Shown: positions 1,984-35,949 of the stretch, piece by piece
How positions within the stretch are numbered: position 1 is the stretch's first letter
Layout: every line of letters starts with the position of its first letter
From: a virus
IMG/VR virus record: IMGVR_UViG_3300027734_000152
Location: 1-38,195 of that record
Length of the DNA stretch: 38,195 bases
Direction: 5' to 3' (one strand)
Program-made: the position numbers and the translations under genes
Notes under the pieces: generated by a model
Database searches by the model: none
What the model was told of the DNA's origin: nothing
Seen by the model: only the letters and a program-made list of their open reading frames with translations

Positions 1984-3924
1984 TCACTGATTGTTCTGGT
2001 TGGCCATTGCGTTCTGCACGCGCCCGCCGGCCAATGCTGCGGGGGAGCGGGCGATCTTACCCGCCGCCCGCACAGGTGCTTCAGCAATTTTTCCTGCCAT
2101 GCGCCCGCGGCGCTCTGCGGCCATTGCCTTTTCAATAGCCGCCGCAGCAACCTGCGGGTCAAGCATTTCCGTGGCCAGTTGGATCGCCAACTTGCTGTCC
2201 ATACTACCGACCACACGCGACATGATGTCGTTGGCCACCGACGCAACGCGGCTCATCAGGTTGGGTAACCGCGCCGCGCGCCCGGCGGCGGATGCCAGTT
2301 TGTCTACCTTGGGCGCAACCGGCGTACCCTTTTGCGCTTGTATCTTTGTTTCTGCGGCGCGGGCCAAGTCGTCGCGGATGGACTCGACAACACGAACCTG
2401 GTCGGGCGTAAGAATGTCCGTCAGCGCCTTGAACCGCGCCTCATTCGTAGTCGCGCGTTTGATTGTGCCGGCAGCATCCCTGACTGCGGTGGCAAAGACG
2501 CCAGCGCGTTGTTCACCGGCGCCCAGCGGCGCAGTCAGTTTGCCTTCCAGATACTGACCAACTTCCATCTGGTTGATTGGTGTGGATTTGGCCTTAAACG
2601 CTTGCCGAGCCGTTTTATACGGGGGGTTTTGCGTCTCTACCCAATTAAGAAACTTTTCCCCAGTTTTGCCTATAGCCTGCGCTTCGGTTGCGCCGATACC
2701 AAAACGCTCTGGATTTCTTGTCAGATCACCAAAAGCCATTTTCATAAAATGCAAACTACTCCCCGGATACTTTGCAAATTCTGCGGGTATCACAGTTGTA
2801 GTAGGCAAGCCTTGCGCGTTCAAAATCTTTGATGTCACGGTTTGCGCGGGGCGATTTTGTCCTATTTGGAACGAAAAACCTTTTTCAGCAGCCAATTCGC
2901 TTGCACGCGCTATTACTTTATTCATAGATGGACGCGCCAACAATTCATCAAAAACAGCATCCGCTGCGATTATAGGTTTGTTCGCTATGCCATAGAGTAT
3001 CTCAGCTTCATCACCCCGCGCTTTTATTGCTGCTTTAAGATCGGCGGGCGTCTTACCAACGCCGCGCATGGCGTTAACGCGCGCTGCTTTCTGTTCCGTT
3101 CCGCGGGCGTAATACTCGGTCGGAAGCACCTTTTCGGCAGACGCGCCAAGAGCGGAGAACTTGGTAACGCCCATCGGCGACGCAGCCTGCGCGGCGGTTG
3201 GCTTGCTACCAGGCACTATTTCTGATGGGTTGTAGCGCAACTGCTGCACAATGTCGCCGGCGCGTCCTTCTGTGGCTTCCAGATACGCCGCGCCTTTAGG
3301 ATCAAAAAAGCGTTGTACGGCAGGTGGCGCCGTACGCAGAATTTTTGCCGCCCCCCGCGCTGGTTTTGCCAGCACGTTGATTGGGTTTGTTTGCGCCGCA
3401 CGGCGGGTCAAAATGTTTGCCGCTTGGGTCGCGCCAGCAGACACGCTAGGTGCAACGCGGGCAGTAGCTGCCGCAGTGCCGCGCGCCAAGCCAGCACCAC
3501 CAGAAAAGATTGTAGACAGGTCGGCGACCGCGCCGACAGGGTCTTCCGCGATTGTGCGCTTCAGCGCATCAACGGAGCCGTACCTCTGCGCGTACACGCC
3601 GCCGAACTGTTTGGCGGCGTTGACTGCCCGCTGCGTTGCGGCGGGGTCTGTGTCAATCTTAGCCATGAAGTTACGCACCGGCTCTGGCAACGCCAAGTTG
3701 ACACCGCCCGCAGCAATGTCCAACATCGACCCAGCGGTCTTGACCGGGTTGGTAACGGCTTCGTAGAGACCTTTGCCAAACTGAAAGGCACTGCTAGGAA
3801 TGTTTTGTACAGCCTGCTCACCAACATCCATCAACGACAGGGATGGCGGCGGCGTGGTTTTATATTTATCCCACGGCCCGGCAGACGTTGCTGGCGTTTG
3901 GTATTTTTCCCACGGGCCGGCCAT
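1984..3924 (-). CDS. Large ejection/internal virion protein (P22 gp16 position)
   Basis: The 646-residue protein begins MAGPWEKYQ and repeats GPWDKYK about 10 residues later, a short tandem motif I associate with phage virion proteins. The rest is alanine-rich and mostly helical, with a possible membrane-active helical part near the N-terminus (FGKGLYEAVTNPVKTAGSMLDIAAGG). I see no enzyme motif. It is the third of three consecutive genes (248, 532 and 646 aa) whose order and sizes match the P22 ejection proteins gp7, gp20 and gp16, so it probably enters the host with the DNA. The ATG at 3924 overlaps the upstream TGA as TGATG and has an AAGGT ribosome binding site; a TTG 18 bases upstream is less likely. 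A block around 2580-3060 (residues about 290-450) is visibly richer in A/T-ending codons than its surroundings. Confidence 0.7.
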   Translation of the reverse strand: MAGPWEKYQTPATSAGPWDKYKTTPPPSLSLMDVGEQAVQNIPSSAFQFGKGLYEAVTNPVKTAGSMLDIAAGGVNLALPEPVRNFMAKIDTDPAATQRAVNAAKQFGGVYAQRYGSVDALKRTIAEDPVGAVADLSTIFSGGAGLARGTAAATARVAPSVSAGATQAANILTRRAAQTNPINVLAKPARGAAKILRTAPPAVQRFFDPKGAAYLEATEGRAGDIVQQLRYNPSEIVPGSKPTAAQAASPMGVTKFSALGASAEKVLPTEYYARGTEQKAARVNAMRGVGKTPADLKAAIKARGDEAEILYGIANKPIIAADAVFDELLARPSMNKVIARASELAAEKGFSFQIGQNRPAQTVTSKILNAQGLPTTTVIPAEFAKYPGSSLHFMKMAFGDLTRNPERFGIGATEAQAIGKTGEKFLNWVETQNPPYKTARQAFKAKSTPINQMEVGQYLEGKLTAPLGAGEQRAGVFATAVRDAAGTIKRATTNEARFKALTDILTPDQVRVVESIRDDLARAAETKIQAQKGTPVAPKVDKLASAAGRAARLPNLMSRVASVANDIMSRVVGSMDSKLAIQLATEMLDPQVAAAAIEKAMAAERRGRMAGKIAEAPVRAAGKIARSPAALAGGRVQNAMANQNNQ

Positions 3925-5522
3925 CAGCGCACCTTTTCCCAATTTTTAGGATTTTTAGGATCACCACCTTTGAAACGATACCCATCATCAATTGCGCCGA
4001 CTTTAGGTGATGTAGTTGCGGCAGGCGCTTTAGCCGCCGCTTCCGCCGTTGGGCCAAACAACGTGTTAGCTGCTTCGTCCAGTTTTGGCGTCCAAGCGCG
4101 GCCAGCGCGGGTCTTGGCGTCCATGACAAGTTGCGCCAGACGTTCCCGCTTGGAGGCAATCGTTTCTGGTTCGTCGGAATACGCCGGAATGTATGACTCC
4201 CTTTGACCTTCCAACTGCTCTTTGTTGTACGCTGCGCCGGTGGCCAGATACAGCAAAGCGTCCAGAACGTCGCGCTGCGCGGCAACAACAATCTGACGTT
4301 GCGGCCCTCGCGTAAAATTGACCGCGCCAGAGATAAACGGCAAACCTCCAATAACGGCTTCTGTTGCGCTTGGGACGTTTGCGCTAGGCGACGTTTCAAC
4401 TGCTTTCTTGATTGCCGCCGCGCCGCGCAACAAACGGTTGATGTTGTACGAGGATGTCTGCTCTTGCACGGTCAAGTCTTTAGTTTTGGAATCGCCCGTA
4501 CCCGGCACAGGAACGCCGAACTGAACGCCGCCGCTGCCGCCAGCCGCAGGCGTGCTGCGGCCCATCTTCGGCCCAGGTTCAACGTGGACGTGGTCGCCTT
4601 CCGCAATAACATCAAAACCTTGCGCCTTGAGCGGCTGGAGGCGTGTGGCCAACTGTGCCACCGTCTGCCCCTTGGCGGGCTGAAAGTCGCGGGCATTGTC
4701 GGACATATGATAGCTGCCGGGGACGCCGCCGACCTGAGCGTTGCGTTCTGGTGTACGCGCGCGCCCACTGACGACGACGCCGGGGCTGAGTTGCTGCGCG
4801 GCCTGTTCAATCCCCGCGCCAAGCGGAGCGCCGCCGCGGGCGCCGCCGACCAGCCCACCGCCAGCCGGCGCCATACGCTTCGGCATGGGTATCACTACGC
4901 CATCTTCGCCCCTGACGTAGGTAATCTCTTGGCCGGTGTCGATGCGAGAGCCGGGCAATTCCTGAGCCACAGCGCCGGGTTCAAATTCTGAAACTTCCAG
5001 TTGGCGCGTGCCGGTGCCGGTGTTCTGCTCAATGAACTTTTTGCTTAGTTGCTCTTTTGCCGACATTGACTGAAACAGCGTTTGCCGCCGCCACGCTTCG
5101 AACTGACCGGGATCAGAAGGCAGCGTGCTGATCGTCTGGTCAACCGCGGGTGCAGCACCAGGAAACTTTTTCTTCAGATAGTCTGCAACAACCATTGCCT
5201 GCTCTGGCGTAGATGCTCTTTTCAACCCTTCGTTGGTAAGATCATAAAAACCAATTACAGCCTTTTGATCCGCTGTCATCGCGTCGGCTTGGGCTTTGGT
5301 CAACACAAATGGCTGCAATTCAGCCGCCCGCGCTTCCCCCGCCACCGCGCGACCTTCAGCCGCGCGCGCAATATCCAACTGCTGCTGCTGCACCGCCGCC
5401 TGACGTTCAGCAGCGCGCTGCTGCGACATAATGTTGATCATCTGCGCGCCCTGCTGAATCGCAGGCGCCAAGAAGTTGCCTTGCGGTGCGCGGGCTTGAA
5501 GGGCGATTGCTTGGTTAGCCAT
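3924..5522 (-). CDS. Internal virion/ejection protein with an M15-type peptidase domain (P22 gp20 position)
   Basis: The 532-residue protein has a glutamine/alanine-rich coiled-coil N-terminus (residues 30-70), then at about 245-318 a peptidase M15-like zinc site: SYHMSDNARDF (H272, D279) and GDHVHVEPG (H311, H313). A central glycine-rich linker (residues 219-236) precedes this domain. The C-terminal half is helical and ends NPKNWEKVR. The order of genes matches P22 gp20. A wall-cutting domain inside an ejected protein would allow local peptidoglycan digestion during DNA entry, as described for virion-associated lysins of other podoviruses; here that is inference from the motif and position. 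It overlaps the next gene by one base. Confidence 0.8.
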   Translation of the reverse strand: MANQAIALQARAPQGNFLAPAIQQGAQMINIMSQQRAAERQAAVQQQQLDIARAAEGRAVAGEARAAELQPFVLTKAQADAMTADQKAVIGFYDLTNEGLKRASTPEQAMVVADYLKKKFPGAAPAVDQTISTLPSDPGQFEAWRRQTLFQSMSAKEQLSKKFIEQNTGTGTRQLEVSEFEPGAVAQELPGSRIDTGQEITYVRGEDGVVIPMPKRMAPAGGGLVGGARGGAPLGAGIEQAAQQLSPGVVVSGRARTPERNAQVGGVPGSYHMSDNARDFQPAKGQTVAQLATRLQPLKAQGFDVIAEGDHVHVEPGPKMGRSTPAAGGSGGVQFGVPVPGTGDSKTKDLTVQEQTSSYNINRLLRGAAAIKKAVETSPSANVPSATEAVIGGLPFISGAVNFTRGPQRQIVVAAQRDVLDALLYLATGAAYNKEQLEGQRESYIPAYSDEPETIASKRERLAQLVMDAKTRAGRAWTPKLDEAANTLFGPTAEAAAKAPAATTSPKVGAIDDGYRFKGGDPKNPKNWEKVR

Positions 5523-16693: not shown

Positions 16694-16993
16694 TTATGCC
16701 CAGACGCGGTGCGGGGATGCTGGCTGAACGCTGATCGGCGCCAACGCAGCAAGCTGCTCGTCGGTAAAATCGCCGCGGAGGTTGGTGTGCCAGCCAGGGT
16801 AGTCCACAACGATAGCAATAGGCTCACCGGACTTGTCCTTGGCTTTGCTGTAGCCCGTCACGCGGCTGAATGACCCGATGTGGTCGAGCGAGACGCCCGC
16901 GACCGGAAAACCTTCTTCGTCGGTGACACCAGCAGCGATCAGCGCAACAAGCATTTCTGCGTCGGTGTCGGTCATGAGATAAAGGTCGATCAT
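16694..16993 (-). CDS. Conserved phage protein of unknown function (99 aa)
   Basis: The product MIDLYLMTDTDAEMLVALIA, AGVTDEEGFPVAGVSLDHIG contains alpha-beta segments and the end GWHTNLRGDFTDEQLAALAP, ISVQPASPHRVWA. From memory, MIDLYLMTDTE-type proteins recur near capsid and fibre genes of many phages, and no function is assigned. It overlaps the spike gene stop as ATGA, so the two are translationally coupled. A role tied to the preceding carbohydrate-binding spike, such as a chaperone, is only a guess from this coupling. Confidence 0.65.
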   Translation of the reverse strand: MIDLYLMTDTDAEMLVALIAAGVTDEEGFPVAGVSLDHIGSFSRVTGYSKAKDKSGEPIAIVVDYPGWHTNLRGDFTDEQLAALAPISVQPASPHRVWA

Positions 16994-18273
16994 GCTGCAA
17001 GCGCCTGTAGCTGTGCGTCGGTGAGACGTGTCGTATAGTAGGTGATGTTGCGGAGGTGGCCGTTGAGCAGTCCACCGGCAAGGCTGCTGCCTCCAAGGGA
17101 TAGTTGCGTTACAGTTGGCATAGTTCCGCTTGTATCAGTCACGACAGCGCCTGTCGTAACGGTGGCAAAGTCGTCTAACCTAAAAGCCGATGCAAACTTA
17201 AACACAGTGCCATCGAAGGGGATTGAAGGTGTGGCAGCAATAGATGCCTGAGTAACACCGCCATCAACCACTTGAAGCGTGGATAGGCCCCCAGTTCGAA
17301 TATTATTGGCTGTAGTGCCATTATCAAATTGAAAAATACGTGTGGCTGGAGACGAGCCAATTGGGCGAATGCTATCGCCGCTTACGACAATCGACCCCTC
17401 ACTGGCGTTGTACCAACTTGAGAAGTTTGCCCCTGTAATCACCGCGTTGTCAGCCGCGCGGGTGACCGTGGATGCCACGGTGGGGACGTAACTGGTGGCA
17501 AACGTGCCGGCTTCGAGTTGCGCGCCGTAAAGAAACAGGCCGCTGGTGCCGTCGCCTATCAATATGGTAATCGAACCACTTTCAGCAAGAAAGATTTGAG
17601 GTGAAGATGAACCTGTTGCGTTAGCGGTTGCCAAAAGAGTGCAACGCCACCAACCGTTGCCAAAAGATGTCATAGATGCAGAAAGTGCGCCCGCACCCAC
17701 AGTAACAACTCCACTAATTAAGTCGAAATAAGTGGAAGTTGAGGCTGGAAATTGAGCTGAAAAACGCAAATTAATCTGGCTAAATTGATCGGCTTTAGCA
17801 AACACTGTAAATGCGTAAGTTATGCCACTGGTTACTGAAACGGGCTGGCCACAAGAGTGGTTAGCTGCTGGCGTAGTGTCGATAACAAACCTATCCGCGT
17901 TCGTCGTGCCGTCAGGCGAGGTCGTAGCGTTAGCCGTGATGCTGGAGCGAACCTTTGACCAGGAAGCGTTGTCAAATTCCTCCGAGCGCAGCAGCAAGTT
18001 GACCCGCTGTTCCTCAACCAACAAGCCCTTTGGCGCAAGCGTAACGGGATCGTAGTCAAAGCGCGGGGCGTTGATTGCCGCCGTTTGAATCAGCCCGTTG
18101 CTACCCACAAACGTAGCTGTGGTGGAACGGGTAAACGTGATGCGGGGGTCAAGGGTGTTGCCGGCCAAAAAGTTTAGTGACAAGCTTGGCACAAGCCGTC
18201 CGCCCGACGACAGAAACGTCGAAGCCAAAAGCCCTATAGAAAGGCCGTTACGGACGGGGATGCCAAAGCTCAT
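16990..18273 (-). CDS. Virion spike/fibre with carbohydrate-binding, lectin-like domains
   Basis: The 427-residue protein starts MSFGIPVRNGLSIGLLASTF. After a LDPRITFTRSTTATFVGSNG segment (about 41-60) comes a beta-sandwich region: GLLVEEQRVNLLLRSEEFDN, ASWSKV, then GITYAFTVFAKADQF and NGWWRCTLLATA, ending LYGAQLEAGTFATSYVPT. This order is typical of phage head-spike or receptor-binding proteins with concanavalin-like folds. The C-terminus (SLAGGLLNGHLRNITYYTTR, LTDAQLQALA) resembles the end of a LamG-type lectin domain. The ATG at 18273 overlaps the upstream TGA as ATGA; a further upstream start would read through that gene. Confidence 0.75.
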   Translation of the reverse strand: MSFGIPVRNGLSIGLLASTFLSSGGRLVPSLSLNFLAGNTLDPRITFTRSTTATFVGSNGLIQTAAINAPRFDYDPVTLAPKGLLVEEQRVNLLLRSEEFDNASWSKVRSSITANATTSPDGTTNADRFVIDTTPAANHSCGQPVSVTSGITYAFTVFAKADQFSQINLRFSAQFPASTSTYFDLISGVVTVGAGALSASMTSFGNGWWRCTLLATANATGSSSPQIFLAESGSITILIGDGTSGLFLYGAQLEAGTFATSYVPTVASTVTRAADNAVITGANFSSWYNASEGSIVVSGDSIRPIGSSPATRIFQFDNGTTANNIRTGGLSTLQVVDGGVTQASIAATPSIPFDGTVFKFASAFRLDDFATVTTGAVVTDTSGTMPTVTQLSLGGSSLAGGLLNGHLRNITYYTTRLTDAQLQALAA

Positions 18274-18572
18274 CGAATGTTGATCGGCTTTGCGTACATC
18301 GTGCCGCCGGCGCTGATCTGGATCGCGCTGACGCGCCACACACCGCCAGTTCCCTGCGGGACGGTGATCGGCACGGGCGTGTAGGCAGGCAGCGGTGTGG
18401 CTGCGGACGTGGCGGTCACGCCTTCACCAACCAGGACGTAGGCATCAGTTGTACACCACACCAGCACGCCCTGCGGGCCGGCGTTCCAGCCGGTCACAGA
18501 CCCGGCGGTGCCGGTGTAAGCCGCGCTTTGCGTCGCAAACCCGGCGTCATTCAATGGGCGAAGCAGTTCCAT
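18270..18572 (-). CDS. Small structural protein (100 aa)
   Basis: MELLRPLNDAGFATQSAAYT is followed by GTAGSVTGWNAGPQGVLVWC, TTDAYVLVGEG and a beta-rich end GGVWRVSAIQISAGGTMYAK. The layout (one short beta domain with a W-x-x-G-P-Q-G-V-x-V-W-x-T-T-D core) is, from memory, frequent beside phage fibre or head genes and has no assigned function. Its stop overlaps the start of the lectin-like spike, which argues for a partner role. No catalytic residues stand out. Confidence 0.6.
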   Translation of the reverse strand: MELLRPLNDAGFATQSAAYTGTAGSVTGWNAGPQGVLVWCTTDAYVLVGEGVTATSAATPLPAYTPVPITVPQGTGGVWRVSAIQISAGGTMYAKPINIR

Positions 18573-30072: not shown

Positions 30073-32070
30073 ATGACCATCCTATGGCTCGATTTCGAGA
30101 CGCGCAGCCGCTGTGACTTGCCGGCCAAGGGCGTCTACAATTACGCGCAGGACGCCAGCACCGACGTGCTGTGTATGTCCTACGCCTTCGACGACGACGC
30201 GGTGCGGACATGGCTGCCAGGTCAGCCGTTCCCCGCTGACGTGCGTCACCACACCGGCCAGATCAGGGCGCACAACGCCGCGTTTGAGCGTCTGGTGTGC
30301 TGGTACGTCCTACAGATCGACTACGCGCTGGAGCAGTTCTACTGCACCGCAGCACAAGCCCGCGCCAACTGCGCGCCGGGCAGCCTGGAGGACGTGGGCC
30401 GGTTCGCTGGCGCGTCCATGAAAAAAGATCATCGCGGATCACAATTGATCAGGCTGCTGTCGATCCCGCAGGCGGACGGCACATTCCGCAACGACCCCGG
30501 CCTGATGGCTGAGATGGTCGCCTACTGCGAACAGGACGTGCGCGCCATGCGGGCCATCGCCCAGGCGCAGCGCGCGCTGTCCGCTGATGAGTTACGCGAC
30601 TACCACACCAACGAACGGATAAACGACCGCGGTGTGCTGCTGGATCGCCCGCTGGCGCTGGCCGCCGTGGGCTACGCCGACGCCGAGTCCGCCGACATCC
30701 AGCAGACGGTCGAGGAGGCCACCGGCGGCGAGATCACGTCCGTCCGCAGCCCCAAGATGCGGGCGTGGGTGCTGGATCGCGTCGGGCCGCAGGCGCTCAA
30801 ACTGGCGACGGTTTACAAGGACGGCGAACCCAAGCTATCCATCGATAAGAACGTCCGCTTCAATCTGCTGGCGCTAAGCGAGGAGAATCCCGATGAAGTA
30901 CCGCCCGTCGTCGCTGAAGTTATCCAATGTGCAGACGACCTTTGGGCGTCGTCAGTTGCAAAGTTTGCGCGCGCGGCTGCGCTCTCAGACGATGAGGATC
31001 AACGAGTTAGAGGAGCGTTCGTATTCGCTGGAGGTAGTGCTACAGGCCGCGCTTCATCATTTGGACTTCAAGTTCATAATTTCCCACGACGATGCGCCGA
31101 CGACCCTGCACTAACACGGCAAGCAATGGTGCGCGGCCACAAGATCGTGCCGCAGTTCGGACGCCGGATCACGGACGTGCTGAAGGGGATGCTGCGCCCG
31201 GCGCTGATGGCGCCTGAAGGCAAGCGGCTGGTGGTGGCCGATTGGGCCGCCATCGAGGCGCGGGTGACGCCCTGGGCGTCGAACACCAACAGCGGCGCAG
31301 AGAAGTTGGGCATCTTCGCGCGCGGCGAGGACGTGTATTGTTATAACGCTGAGGCTACGTTTCACGTCCCGTACAAAGAGATATTTGAAGGGAACGAAGC
31401 GGAGACCAAGAAATATGTCGATATGCGCCAGATCGGCAAGGTGCAGGAGTTGGCTTGCGGCTTCGCCGGCGGCGTGGGCGCGTTTGCCGCTATGGGCCGC
31501 ATCTATAATGTGGTGATGACCGAGAGCGACAGCCGCAAGATGGTGGACGTCTGGCGTCGGGCAAACCCGTGGTCGGTCAACTATTGGACGGGGCTGGAGC
31601 GGGCGTACACCGGCGCCATGCGCCACCCAGGCCAAGAGATCAGCGCCGGGCGCGTGACGTATATGTTCGACAAGCAGCATCTTTGGTATGCCCTGCCGTC
31701 AGGCCGTGTGCTATGCTACCCGTTCGCCCGCTTTGATGAGGAAGGCAACATCACCTACGCCAAAGCGGCGTGGAAGCCCGCCGCCGACGCAAAGGAATGG
31801 CCCCGCGCCCGCCTGTGGCGCGGTCTGGCCTGCGAAAACATCACACAGGCCATCGCCAACGATCTGCTACGGCACGCGCTGCGGCGGTTGGAGGAAGAAG
31901 GGTTTGACGTAGTGCTGCACGTCCACGACGAAATCGTGCTGGAGACCGACGCCAGCACCGCCGAGGACGCCGCCGCCGCGCTGATCAAGATAATGAGTAC
32001 GCCGCCGCTCTGGGCCGCTGGTCTGCCTTTGAGCGCCAAAGTTAAAATCATGACCCGTTACGGGAAATAG
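30073..32070 (+). CDS. Family A DNA polymerase with 3'-5' exonuclease domain
   Basis: The 665-residue protein has the exonuclease motif LWLDFETRS (D7, E9) at its N-terminus, then the polymerase: AGGSATGRASSFGLQVHNFP (about 317-336), motif A VVADWAAIEARVTPW (D390), motif B RQIGKVQELACGFAGGVGAF (K456 region) and motif C LHVHDEIVLE (D619). This is the replicative polymerase of the phage. GTGAGG lies before the ATG. Between about residues 274 and 347 the codons shift sharply to A/T third positions (28 of 74 G/C-ending, against 32 of 41 just before and 42 of 49 just after); this is exactly where a second open frame overlaps. Confidence 0.95.
   Translation: MTILWLDFETRSRCDLPAKGVYNYAQDASTDVLCMSYAFDDDAVRTWLPGQPFPADVRHHTGQIRAHNAAFERLVCWYVLQIDYALEQFYCTAAQARANCAPGSLEDVGRFAGASMKKDHRGSQLIRLLSIPQADGTFRNDPGLMAEMVAYCEQDVRAMRAIAQAQRALSADELRDYHTNERINDRGVLLDRPLALAAVGYADAESADIQQTVEEATGGEITSVRSPKMRAWVLDRVGPQALKLATVYKDGEPKLSIDKNVRFNLLALSEENPDEVPPVVAEVIQCADDLWASSVAKFARAAALSDDEDQRVRGAFVFAGGSATGRASSFGLQVHNFPRRCADDPALTRQAMVRGHKIVPQFGRRITDVLKGMLRPALMAPEGKRLVVADWAAIEARVTPWASNTNSGAEKLGIFARGEDVYCYNAEATFHVPYKEIFEGNEAETKKYVDMRQIGKVQELACGFAGGVGAFAAMGRIYNVVMTESDSRKMVDVWRRANPWSVNYWTGLERAYTGAMRHPGQEISAGRVTYMFDKQHLWYALPSGRVLCYPFARFDEEGNITYAKAAWKPAADAKEWPRARLWRGLACENITQAIANDLLRHALRRLEEEGFDVVLHVHDEIVLETDASTAEDAAAALIKIMSTPPLWAAGLPLSAKVKIMTRYGK
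30893..31114 (+). CDS. Candidate overprinted gene nested in the polymerase gene (+1 frame, 73 aa)
   Basis: An ATG at 30893 is preceded by GAGGAG with a 7-base gap, an ideal ribosome binding site inside the polymerase gene. The product MKYRPSSLKLSNVQTTFGRR continues QLQSLRARLRSQTMRINELE, ERSYSLEVVLQAALHHLDFK, a basic first half and then an amphipathic coiled-coil helix. It uses G/C-ending codons in 54 of 73 positions. The polymerase frame drops from about 80 percent to 38 percent G/C-ending codons precisely across this interval, as expected if the second frame is under selection. No homologue is recognised. A chance open frame plus a recombined low-GC polymerase segment remains possible. Confidence 0.6.
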   Translation: MKYRPSSLKLSNVQTTFGRRQLQSLRARLRSQTMRINELEERSYSLEVVLQAALHHLDFKFIISHDDAPTTLH

Positions 32071-34543: not shown

Positions 34544-34819
34544 ATGACCGAGAAAGAAATCGAAGCACACTTCGTGAAGCGCGTGAAGGCGCTGGGCGGG
34601 TACAGCTACAAGTTCCGTAGCGTGACGCAGCGGGGCGTGGCTGACCGCATCGTCTGCCTGCCGAACGGCCAGACGTGGTTTGTGGAATTGAAGAAGCCCG
34701 GCGGGCGGCTGTCGCCGCTGCAAGAGATATTCGCCGAACAGATGGCGACAACGGGCCAGCACTACGCCGTGCTGTGGTCAAAAGAGGATGTGGATGGTTG
34801 GGAAAGGAAAATAAAATGA
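34544..34819 (+). CDS. VRR-NUC domain nuclease (91 aa)
   Basis: The whole protein is one VRR-NUC domain of the PD-(D/E)XK fold: KFRSVTQRGVADRIVCLPNG (D34), QTWFVELKKPGGRLSPLQ (E48, K50, Q60). Stand-alone VRR-NUC proteins occur in many phages and act on branched or structured DNA, for example as Holliday-junction resolvases. It precedes a methyltransferase and a SNF2-type helicase, a combination common in phage genomes. AGGA lies 7 bases before the ATG. Its stop overlaps the methyltransferase start as ATGA. Confidence 0.92.
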   Translation: MTEKEIEAHFVKRVKALGGYSYKFRSVTQRGVADRIVCLPNGQTWFVELKKPGGRLSPLQEIFAEQMATTGQHYAVLWSKEDVDGWERKIK

Positions 34820-35949
34820 CAGTATACTACAATGAGATAGACCCATACGCCGCGCAATGGCTCAGGAACCTGATCGCGGCAGGACACTTGGCGAAAGGTG
34901 AAGTTGATGAGCGCAGTATCACGGAAATTCAACCTGATGACCTTCTTGGTTTCGACCAGTGTCACTTCTTCGCAGGGATCGGCGTTTGGGGCCACGCCCT
35001 GCGCCGAGCCGGATGGGCCGACGACCGGCCCGTCTGGACGGGAAGTTGCCCTTGCCAGCCGTTCAGCGCCGCAGGCAAGCAAGAAGGCTTCGCTGACGAG
35101 CGTCATCTCTGGCCCACCTGGTTCAACCTCATCCGCCAGTGCCGCCCTGCAATCGTCCTTGGCGAACAGGTTGCAAGCGCGCTCGACTGGCTCGATCTTG
35201 TATCAACTGACATGGAAAGCGCGGGCTACGCCTTTGGGGCGGCAGATTTGTGCGCTGCGGGGTTCGGCGGCGCGCACATCCGGCAGCGACTTTATTTCAC
35301 GGGGGTGGCCGACACCTACAACACGCGACCACAAGGATGGGGCCGAATGCCTAAACGTGCCGGTGAATGCGTTGCTGGGGCGGCTTGTGTGGACGACGGG
35401 CTGGCCAACGCCCCGCTCGACGGACGGCGACAAGGGGTCAAGGACGGCGGAAGGCTGCGAAGCGGAAATCGCGAGGAAGGGACGGCTGGACGATCTGCCA
35501 TCAACAGCGACCTATCTGGCGGGCTGGCCGACGCCGACCACCAACGACAGCGTTCGCCAACCATCTCAAGACTTTGCAACAAAGAATATTACGTTGAACC
35601 ACGGAGCAGTGTTAGCGGGCTGGCCGACGCCTATGACACAGGACGACAACTGCTCACGGGTGGCAAACCCGCAGGAGTATTCAACCAAGCGGCTGAACAG
35701 AAAGAACGCTTCGAGCAATCTTGCGGACACGGCGCAGGGGTTGACCACCGCCATGCGCCTATGCTGGGACGGGACGCTGCTGACTGGCTCTACTGCCGGG
35801 ATGGCAAGTGGAGGCCGGTTGAACCCGGCACATTCCCGTTGGCTGATGCGGCTGCCAGCCGCGTGGGACGACTGCGCGCCTACGGAAACGGCCTCGACGC
35901 TGAAACGGCAACGCAGTTCGTAGCGGCGGTGATGGACTGCGCGCCATGA
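34816..35949 (+). CDS. C5-cytosine DNA methyltransferase
   Basis: The 377-residue protein has motif I CHFFAGIGVWGHALRRAGW (F52-G56), motif IV TGSCPCQPFSAAGK (catalytic C80), motif VI VLGEQVA (E117), motif VIII HIRQRLYF (155-161) and a motif X-like end RLRAYGNGLDAETATQFVAA. It methylates C in some target, probably to protect phage DNA from host restriction. The target-recognition half (about 165-330) contains repeated GLADA-type motifs (GVADT, GLANA, GLADA, GLADA) and shows only about 57 percent G/C-ending codons (80 of 140 counted from 35305), low for this genome, where another open frame overlaps in +1. It is coupled to its neighbours by ATGA overlaps on both sides. No matching restriction enzyme is seen. 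Confidence 0.9.
   Translation: MTVYYNEIDPYAAQWLRNLIAAGHLAKGEVDERSITEIQPDDLLGFDQCHFFAGIGVWGHALRRAGWADDRPVWTGSCPCQPFSAAGKQEGFADERHLWPTWFNLIRQCRPAIVLGEQVASALDWLDLVSTDMESAGYAFGAADLCAAGFGGAHIRQRLYFTGVADTYNTRPQGWGRMPKRAGECVAGAACVDDGLANAPLDGRRQGVKDGGRLRSGNREEGTAGRSAINSDLSGGLADADHQRQRSPTISRLCNKEYYVEPRSSVSGLADAYDTGRQLLTGGKPAGVFNQAAEQKERFEQSCGHGAGVDHRHAPMLGRDAADWLYCRDGKWRPVEPGTFPLADAAASRVGRLRAYGNGLDAETATQFVAAVMDCAP
34907..35923 (+). CDS. Candidate overlapping gene in the methyltransferase (+1 frame, 338 aa, GWPTP repeats)
   Basis: This frame is open for over 1 kb inside the methyltransferase gene. I place the start at ATG 34907 because AAAGG lies 8 bases before it. The product is S/T/R/A-rich, with LQARSTGSILYQLTWKARAT and PLGRQICALRGSAARTSGSD, four GWPTP motifs (GWPTPT, GWPTPR, GWPTPT, GWPTPM) and the end SGGRLNPAHSRWLMRLPAAW, DDCAPTETAS. 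From memory, proteins with these segments are deposited from many phages, so the frame is recurrent; whether it is translated or merely follows from methyltransferase conservation is unknown. The GWPTP repeats are the same DNA as GLADA in the main frame. Confidence 0.45.
   Translation: MSAVSRKFNLMTFLVSTSVTSSQGSAFGATPCAEPDGPTTGPSGREVALASRSAPQASKKASLTSVISGPPGSTSSASAALQSSLANRLQARSTGSILYQLTWKARATPLGRQICALRGSAARTSGSDFISRGWPTPTTRDHKDGAECLNVPVNALLGRLVWTTGWPTPRSTDGDKGSRTAEGCEAEIARKGRLDDLPSTATYLAGWPTPTTNDSVRQPSQDFATKNITLNHGAVLAGWPTPMTQDDNCSRVANPQEYSTKRLNRKNASSNLADTAQGLTTAMRLCWDGTLLTGSTAGMASGGRLNPAHSRWLMRLPAAWDDCAPTETASTLKRQRSS

Follow-up and report, generated by a model that had tools for sequence, protein, structure and literature searches.

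The window analysed here, meaning the whole stretch of 38,195 nucleotides, is a 38.2-kb virus record (IMGVR_UViG_3300027734_000152) with tailed-phage genes for a portal, a major head protein, head closure, an exonuclease, a primase and a helicase. It also carries a gene for a family-A DNA polymerase, whose ORF matched the profiles of the PHROG DNA polymerase (E = 1e-94) and of Pfam DNA_pol_A (E = 2e-12). Wholly within this gene, on the same strand and in the +1 frame, lies a second ORF of 73 codons plus a TAA stop, present as originally predicted, together with the features listed in Table 1; its translation is MKYRPSSLKLSNVQTTFGRRQLQSLRARLRSQTMRINELEERSYSLEVVLQAALHHLDFKFIISHDDAPTTLH.

Table 1. 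Features of the polymerase gene and of the ORF nested in it (window positions).
Feature	Position	Strand	Length or sequence	Remarks
Family-A DNA polymerase gene, outer frame	30073..32070	+	665 aa	
+1-frame stop	30875..30877	+	TAA	Directly upstream of the nested start, read from the sequence
Shine-Dalgarno-like motif	30880..30885	+	GAGGAG	7 bases before the ATG at 30893
Very probable overprinted +1-frame gene	30893..31114	+	73 aa, MKYRPSSLKL...APTTLH, stop TAA	Conserved ATG, open frame, stop site, GC3 dip
Core of the nested gene, residues 31-60	30983..31072	+		G/C-ending polymerase codons most depleted; helix prediction confident here

Length alone does not set this ORF apart, since the gene has +1 ORFs of 102, 81 and 74 codons elsewhere, and therefore the evidence beyond chance consists of a dip in codon bias and its behaviour in relatives. 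The ribosome binding site that had been put forward as a further signal stands at the predicted spacing, but it is not diagnostic of the ORF, because a conserved Glu-Glu of the polymerase encodes the motif and relatives without the ORF, such as L005, have it as well. A promoter scan found no site directly upstream of the nested ORF. The proportion of G/C-ending codons (GC3), 0.77 over the polymerase ORF, falls to 28 of 75 codons inside the nested interval, against 32/41 before it and 43/49 after it, so that the counts made by eye in the original prediction were right to within one codon. No other 74-codon stretch of the polymerase gene has a GC3 as low, and codon positions 1 and 2 show no drop in G/C within the interval. 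Change-point analysis of the group-mean GC3 gave codons 303-332 of the polymerase as the best segment, which is the core of the dip and not the exact ends of the ORF; since the change-point locates the core alone, the ends were taken from the comparison of ORF classes.

Relatives were collected by four IMG/VR scans and from the named phage record MW202483, giving 215 distinct polymerases, which were aligned and are 59-95% identical to that of the window over aligned positions; the nearest phage among named phage records has a polymerase 58% identical. Classification of the dip was restricted to the 151 polymerases with a background GC3 of at least 0.6. Both dip and ORF were present in 102 of these, neither in 33, and the ORF without a clear dip at the threshold used in 16, several of which dip in the extension of the longer ORF; no polymerase had a dip without the ORF (Fisher p = 1.6e-21, relatedness ignored). 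Grouping sequences by stop position and counting those free of +1 stops was dropped as circular, and sequences were instead selected on the GC3 dip only, which is the non-circular form of the test. In this dip-selected set the +1 frame had no stop over codons 274-345 and an ATG stood at codon 271-274 or 278, both in 102/102 sequences, whereas the other frames had stops in nearly all (on average 3.8 in the +2 frame and 1.5-3.3 in the antisense frames). Without a dip, the +1 frame was open in 27/49 polymerases (55%) and the ATG was absent in 33/49. The breakage of the nested frame in relatives that was to count against the prediction was accordingly not seen among the dip-bearers. Stops in the +2 frame were more numerous in the dip set than in the no-dip set (3.8 vs 2.1), and therefore low GC3 alone is not what removes stops. 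Three close relatives at 84% identity, L005, L006 and L008, carry ACG in place of the ATG, lack the stop after TLH, and reach a regional GC3 of 0.85-0.86. When a polymerase tree was made with the columns of the region left out, the state of the ORF changed 15 times on it (gains and losses unpolarised), and phylogenetically independent pairs were concordant in 5.7 cases and opposed in none (p about 0.03, with few pairs).

Downstream, the dip ends where the nested ORF ends. With a stop at codon 346, as in the L057/L059 group and that of the window, GC3 rebounds to 0.53-1.00 over codons 347-376; in the L051-L080 clade, the ORF runs on to codon 377, GC3 over codons 347-376 is 0.27-0.43, and past codon 377 it is back to 0.74-0.89 in most members. 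A low-GC block reaching beyond the ORF, the other outcome named as contrary to the prediction, was hence not found, as the block ends with the stop at 346 or 377. The stop at codon 346 is TAG in 58 sequences, TGA in five and TAA in three, so it is kept as a stop and not as one sequence. Start, open frame and stop are in this way kept in the relatives beyond the demands of the outer protein, as expected of an overprinted gene.

Selection on codons gave a graded picture. Raw synonymous divergence was strongly lowered in the extension of the long form (0.56, z = -8.2, codons 346-377) and only slightly in the window's group (0.88-0.98), so that the synonymous-site conservation proposed as a check is strong in the long-form clade and weak in the window's group, probably because codons outside the interval are held by the strong G/C-ending bias. 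Given this weakness, A/T-ending codons were examined separately by measuring how often A/T-ending polymerase codons are kept identical between tree neighbours. Within the short ORF retention rose to 78%, and in the core of that ORF to 80%, against 53% in the 30 codons past the stop, 52-70% elsewhere in the gene, and 41% over codons 274-345 in ORF-less polymerases; in the long form it was 91% at codons 347-376 and 53% after. Single codons illustrate the pattern, with invariant polymerase residues taking codons that are avoided elsewhere: Ala-326 is GCT in 49/53 sequences and Gly-319 is GGA in 43/53, where ORF-less polymerases mostly have GCG or GCC and GGC, respectively. The third base of codon 345 is A in 53/53 despite a varying amino acid. 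In addition, changes that are silent in the polymerase are conservative for the nested protein (z = 5.0, the top of ten regions, the others in the group reaching at most 3.2). Retention and conservative changes, and in the long form alone the lowered synonymous divergence, all point to purifying selection on the nested frame at outer-frame synonymous sites. In the closest relatives, local synonymous counts are 2/71 against 15-19% outside, a contrast that is open to recombination and is not used as main evidence. The weak synonymous suppression in the window's group suggests that the nested protein is fast-evolving; 75 sampled nested proteins are 29-92% identical to that of the window, and by these comparisons the protein is not strongly conserved over long distances.

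AlphaFold2 applied to these 75 members predicted one long helix at residues 14-66, with mean pLDDT values of 97 for residues 31-40, 95 for 41-50 and 83 for 51-60, and 26 helix residues at a pLDDT of at least 90. The strongest codon distortion (codons 303-332) coincides with this confident stretch, whose helix propensity exceeds a codon-resampled null (median p = 0.027); its amphipathicity, measured as hydrophobic moment, is not above that null (median p = 0.42). For the long form, the best-predicted helix lies in the extension, at residues 75-98, in a poor model (pLDDT 57). The nested protein had no match in Pfam, PHROGs, PDB sequences, BFVD or a tblastn search of the phage collection, and a PHROG match in one of the 75 members (E = 0.003) was taken as chance.

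Several other explanations of the dip were weighed. The low-GC3 block might have entered by recombination or horizontal transfer, bringing foreign codon usage with it, an idea suggested by the abruptness of the GC3 drop and by signs of recombination elsewhere in the gene, for example between the window and L010. However, neither the amino acids nor the G/C content of codon positions 1 and 2 is altered, the block has a common start across many divergent lineages and an end that tracks the nested stop, and the ATG and the open +1 frame are always kept in dip-bearing sequences, all of which make such an origin highly improbable. We give no more credence to the view that the A/T-ending codons serve a nucleic-acid element, such as an RNA structure, an origin or a regulatory site, instead of a protein. 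The high conservation of codon choice at single columns would suit it, but RNA folding was not stronger than in shuffled sequences (z = +1.06), there was no Rfam match, and an element of this kind would not explain TAG, TGA and TAA at one site, the amino-acid-conservative changes or the always-open frame. Rare codons do cluster around the conserved ATGRASS motif of the polymerase, as selection for slow translation at a folding boundary of that protein would have it; yet near-identical proteins without the nested ATG use common codons throughout and have no dip, and slow translation would not preserve an ATG, an open +1 frame and a stop, so that this account too is very unlikely. Chance does not fit the pattern either.

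A further possibility is a refinement of the overprinted-gene reading, and its probability is not to be added to those of the other readings: the short and long nested ORFs may have arisen independently at a hot spot and encode different proteins. The constrained part lies at codons 303-332 in the short form and 347-377 in the long form, the best-predicted helices of the two differ correspondingly in position, the short- and long-form clades agree at third bases no more often than background, and the number of state changes on the tree points the same way. On the other hand, both forms have the same start site and frame, the long-form model is poor, and rapid divergence from a single ancestor would give the same picture; we regard independent origins as plausible, though on balance somewhat improbable.

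We therefore return to the reading of the nested ORF as a genuine gene that encodes a protein and is overprinted, in the +1 frame, on a phage DNA polymerase gene. Resting on comparative sequence evidence, namely the GC3 dip, the open +1 frame in all dip-bearers, the edge that tracks the stop and the retention of A/T-ending codons, it is in our judgement very likely correct. Points that count against it are the weak lowering of synonymous divergence in the window's group, a helical moment no higher than the null, the 16 polymerases with the ORF but no clear dip, and a low-GC3 clade with a conserved +1 stop at codon 300, described below. The sequences show selection in the +1 frame: the third base of a polymerase codon doubles as the second base of a nested one, so that polymerase codons at defined positions are forced to end in A or T, which lets the nested protein hold Leu, Ile, Val, Glu and Lys, beyond Arg, Ser, Pro, Ala and Gly. 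Ribosomes would initiate internally at GAGGAG-N7-ATG on the polymerase mRNA, as the upstream +1 stop would cut a long frameshift product short, and a 73-aa, mostly helical (coiled-coil-like) protein would be made alongside the polymerase. The gene is probably accessory, since it has been repeatedly gained or lost (the 15 changes on the tree) while the polymerase stays; its product would be dispensable for polymerase function and most likely a binder of a host or replication protein. As a tentative assignment, which we rate a little below an even chance, its role would be that of an accessory protein-binding helical peptide. A bolder version, which we consider rather unlikely, takes the middle of the polymerase gene as a gene nursery, where different small helical proteins are repeatedly born, lengthened, shortened and lost, always in the same +1 frame; within one tailed-phage family, each birth and death would then be recorded in the polymerase's codon bias.

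Some observations at this and other loci are given here in their own right. A low-GC3 clade of 25 sequences has a conserved +1 stop at codon 300 and mostly one at 303 too. In this clade, which includes L056:2001-3944, L064:2001-3944 and L076:2001-3968, a conserved +1 ATG (MKK...) after the stops, at polymerase codons 300-306, would restart the same frame, and GC3 is still lowered in several members; these sequences may carry a truncated or restarted nested version. Another clade, in which the nested stop is at codon 377 (L136, L139, L141, L143, L144, L146, L149, L152, L154 and L161), has a background GC3 of 0.78-0.79 and shows a fall to 0.50-0.54 directly past that stop, at codons 378-404. Elsewhere in the window, 40-codon stretches of low GC3 occur on the minus strand in a tail-protein gene (17701-17820 in 16990-18339, 0.25, the gene being low overall at 0.53) and in the gene at 1984-3942 (2860-2979, 0.28, overall 0.58). 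The C5-cytosine methyltransferase gene at 34675-35949 on the plus strand (phrog_363, 2e-75; Pfam DNA_methylase, 4e-15) contains a 341-codon +1 ORF at 34898-35923 (plus strand), which matches other PHROGs labelled methyltransferase (1e-33 and 4e-31) and has no Pfam or NCBIfam family match. The +1 frame stays open over 207-392 codons in 31 IMG/VR relatives (37-100% identical), and in nine such genes synonymous shuffles predicted 2.8-4.8 stops, against none observed in eight and one in one. In phages Haboob and BcepC6B the annotated gene of the methyltransferase locus is the other frame. The locus looks dual-coding over about 1 kb.

If the overprinted-gene reading is correct, more than 100 environmental phages carry a previously unannotated nested gene, which went unseen because standard annotation rarely calls genes nested inside others. 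A GC3 scar that is present with the ORF and absent in ORF-less near relatives would be a simple and strong signal for scanning GC-rich phage genomes, and repeated gains and losses on a well-sampled polymerase tree would open the birth and death of overlapping genes to direct testing. Overprinted genes are already known as a kind, including in phage replicase genes and the hepadnavirus polymerase; our literature search, which had partial coverage, brought up no previous description of one nested in the DNA polymerase gene of a tailed phage.

Phage genes nested in a shifted frame have familiar counterparts in phage lambda, where Rz1 is nested inside Rz, and in the overlapping genes of phiX174. 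The latter are reviewed in PMC8227390, and spanins are the subject of PMC6139136. Both differ from the present case in their outer genes and functions, and Rz1 has a lipobox, whereas the nested protein of the window has no cysteine and hence no lipobox, unlike an Rz1-like spanin. Across 12,609 surveyed virus genomes, the median +1-shifted overlap measured 14 nt (PMC8903798), so that a fully nested overlap of 222 nt in a dsDNA phage is unusual. The surface gene of hepadnaviruses overlaps their polymerase gene (reviewed in PMC8227390) and is likewise a second gene inside a polymerase gene in another frame; it belongs, however, to a reverse-transcribing animal virus and encodes a well-studied envelope protein, and the proteins are unrelated. 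The sgl lysis genes of leviviruses, which are ssRNA phages, are embedded in the replicase gene (PMC7693330). Their products are laboratory-tested lysis proteins of RNA phages, whereas here the outer gene is that for the family-A DNA polymerase of a dsDNA tailed phage and no lysis features were seen in the nested sequence. Like the nested gene described here, however, the sgl genes are small alternative-frame phage genes within a replication polymerase gene, and their repeated de novo origin, with little or no mutual similarity, may be a further likeness.
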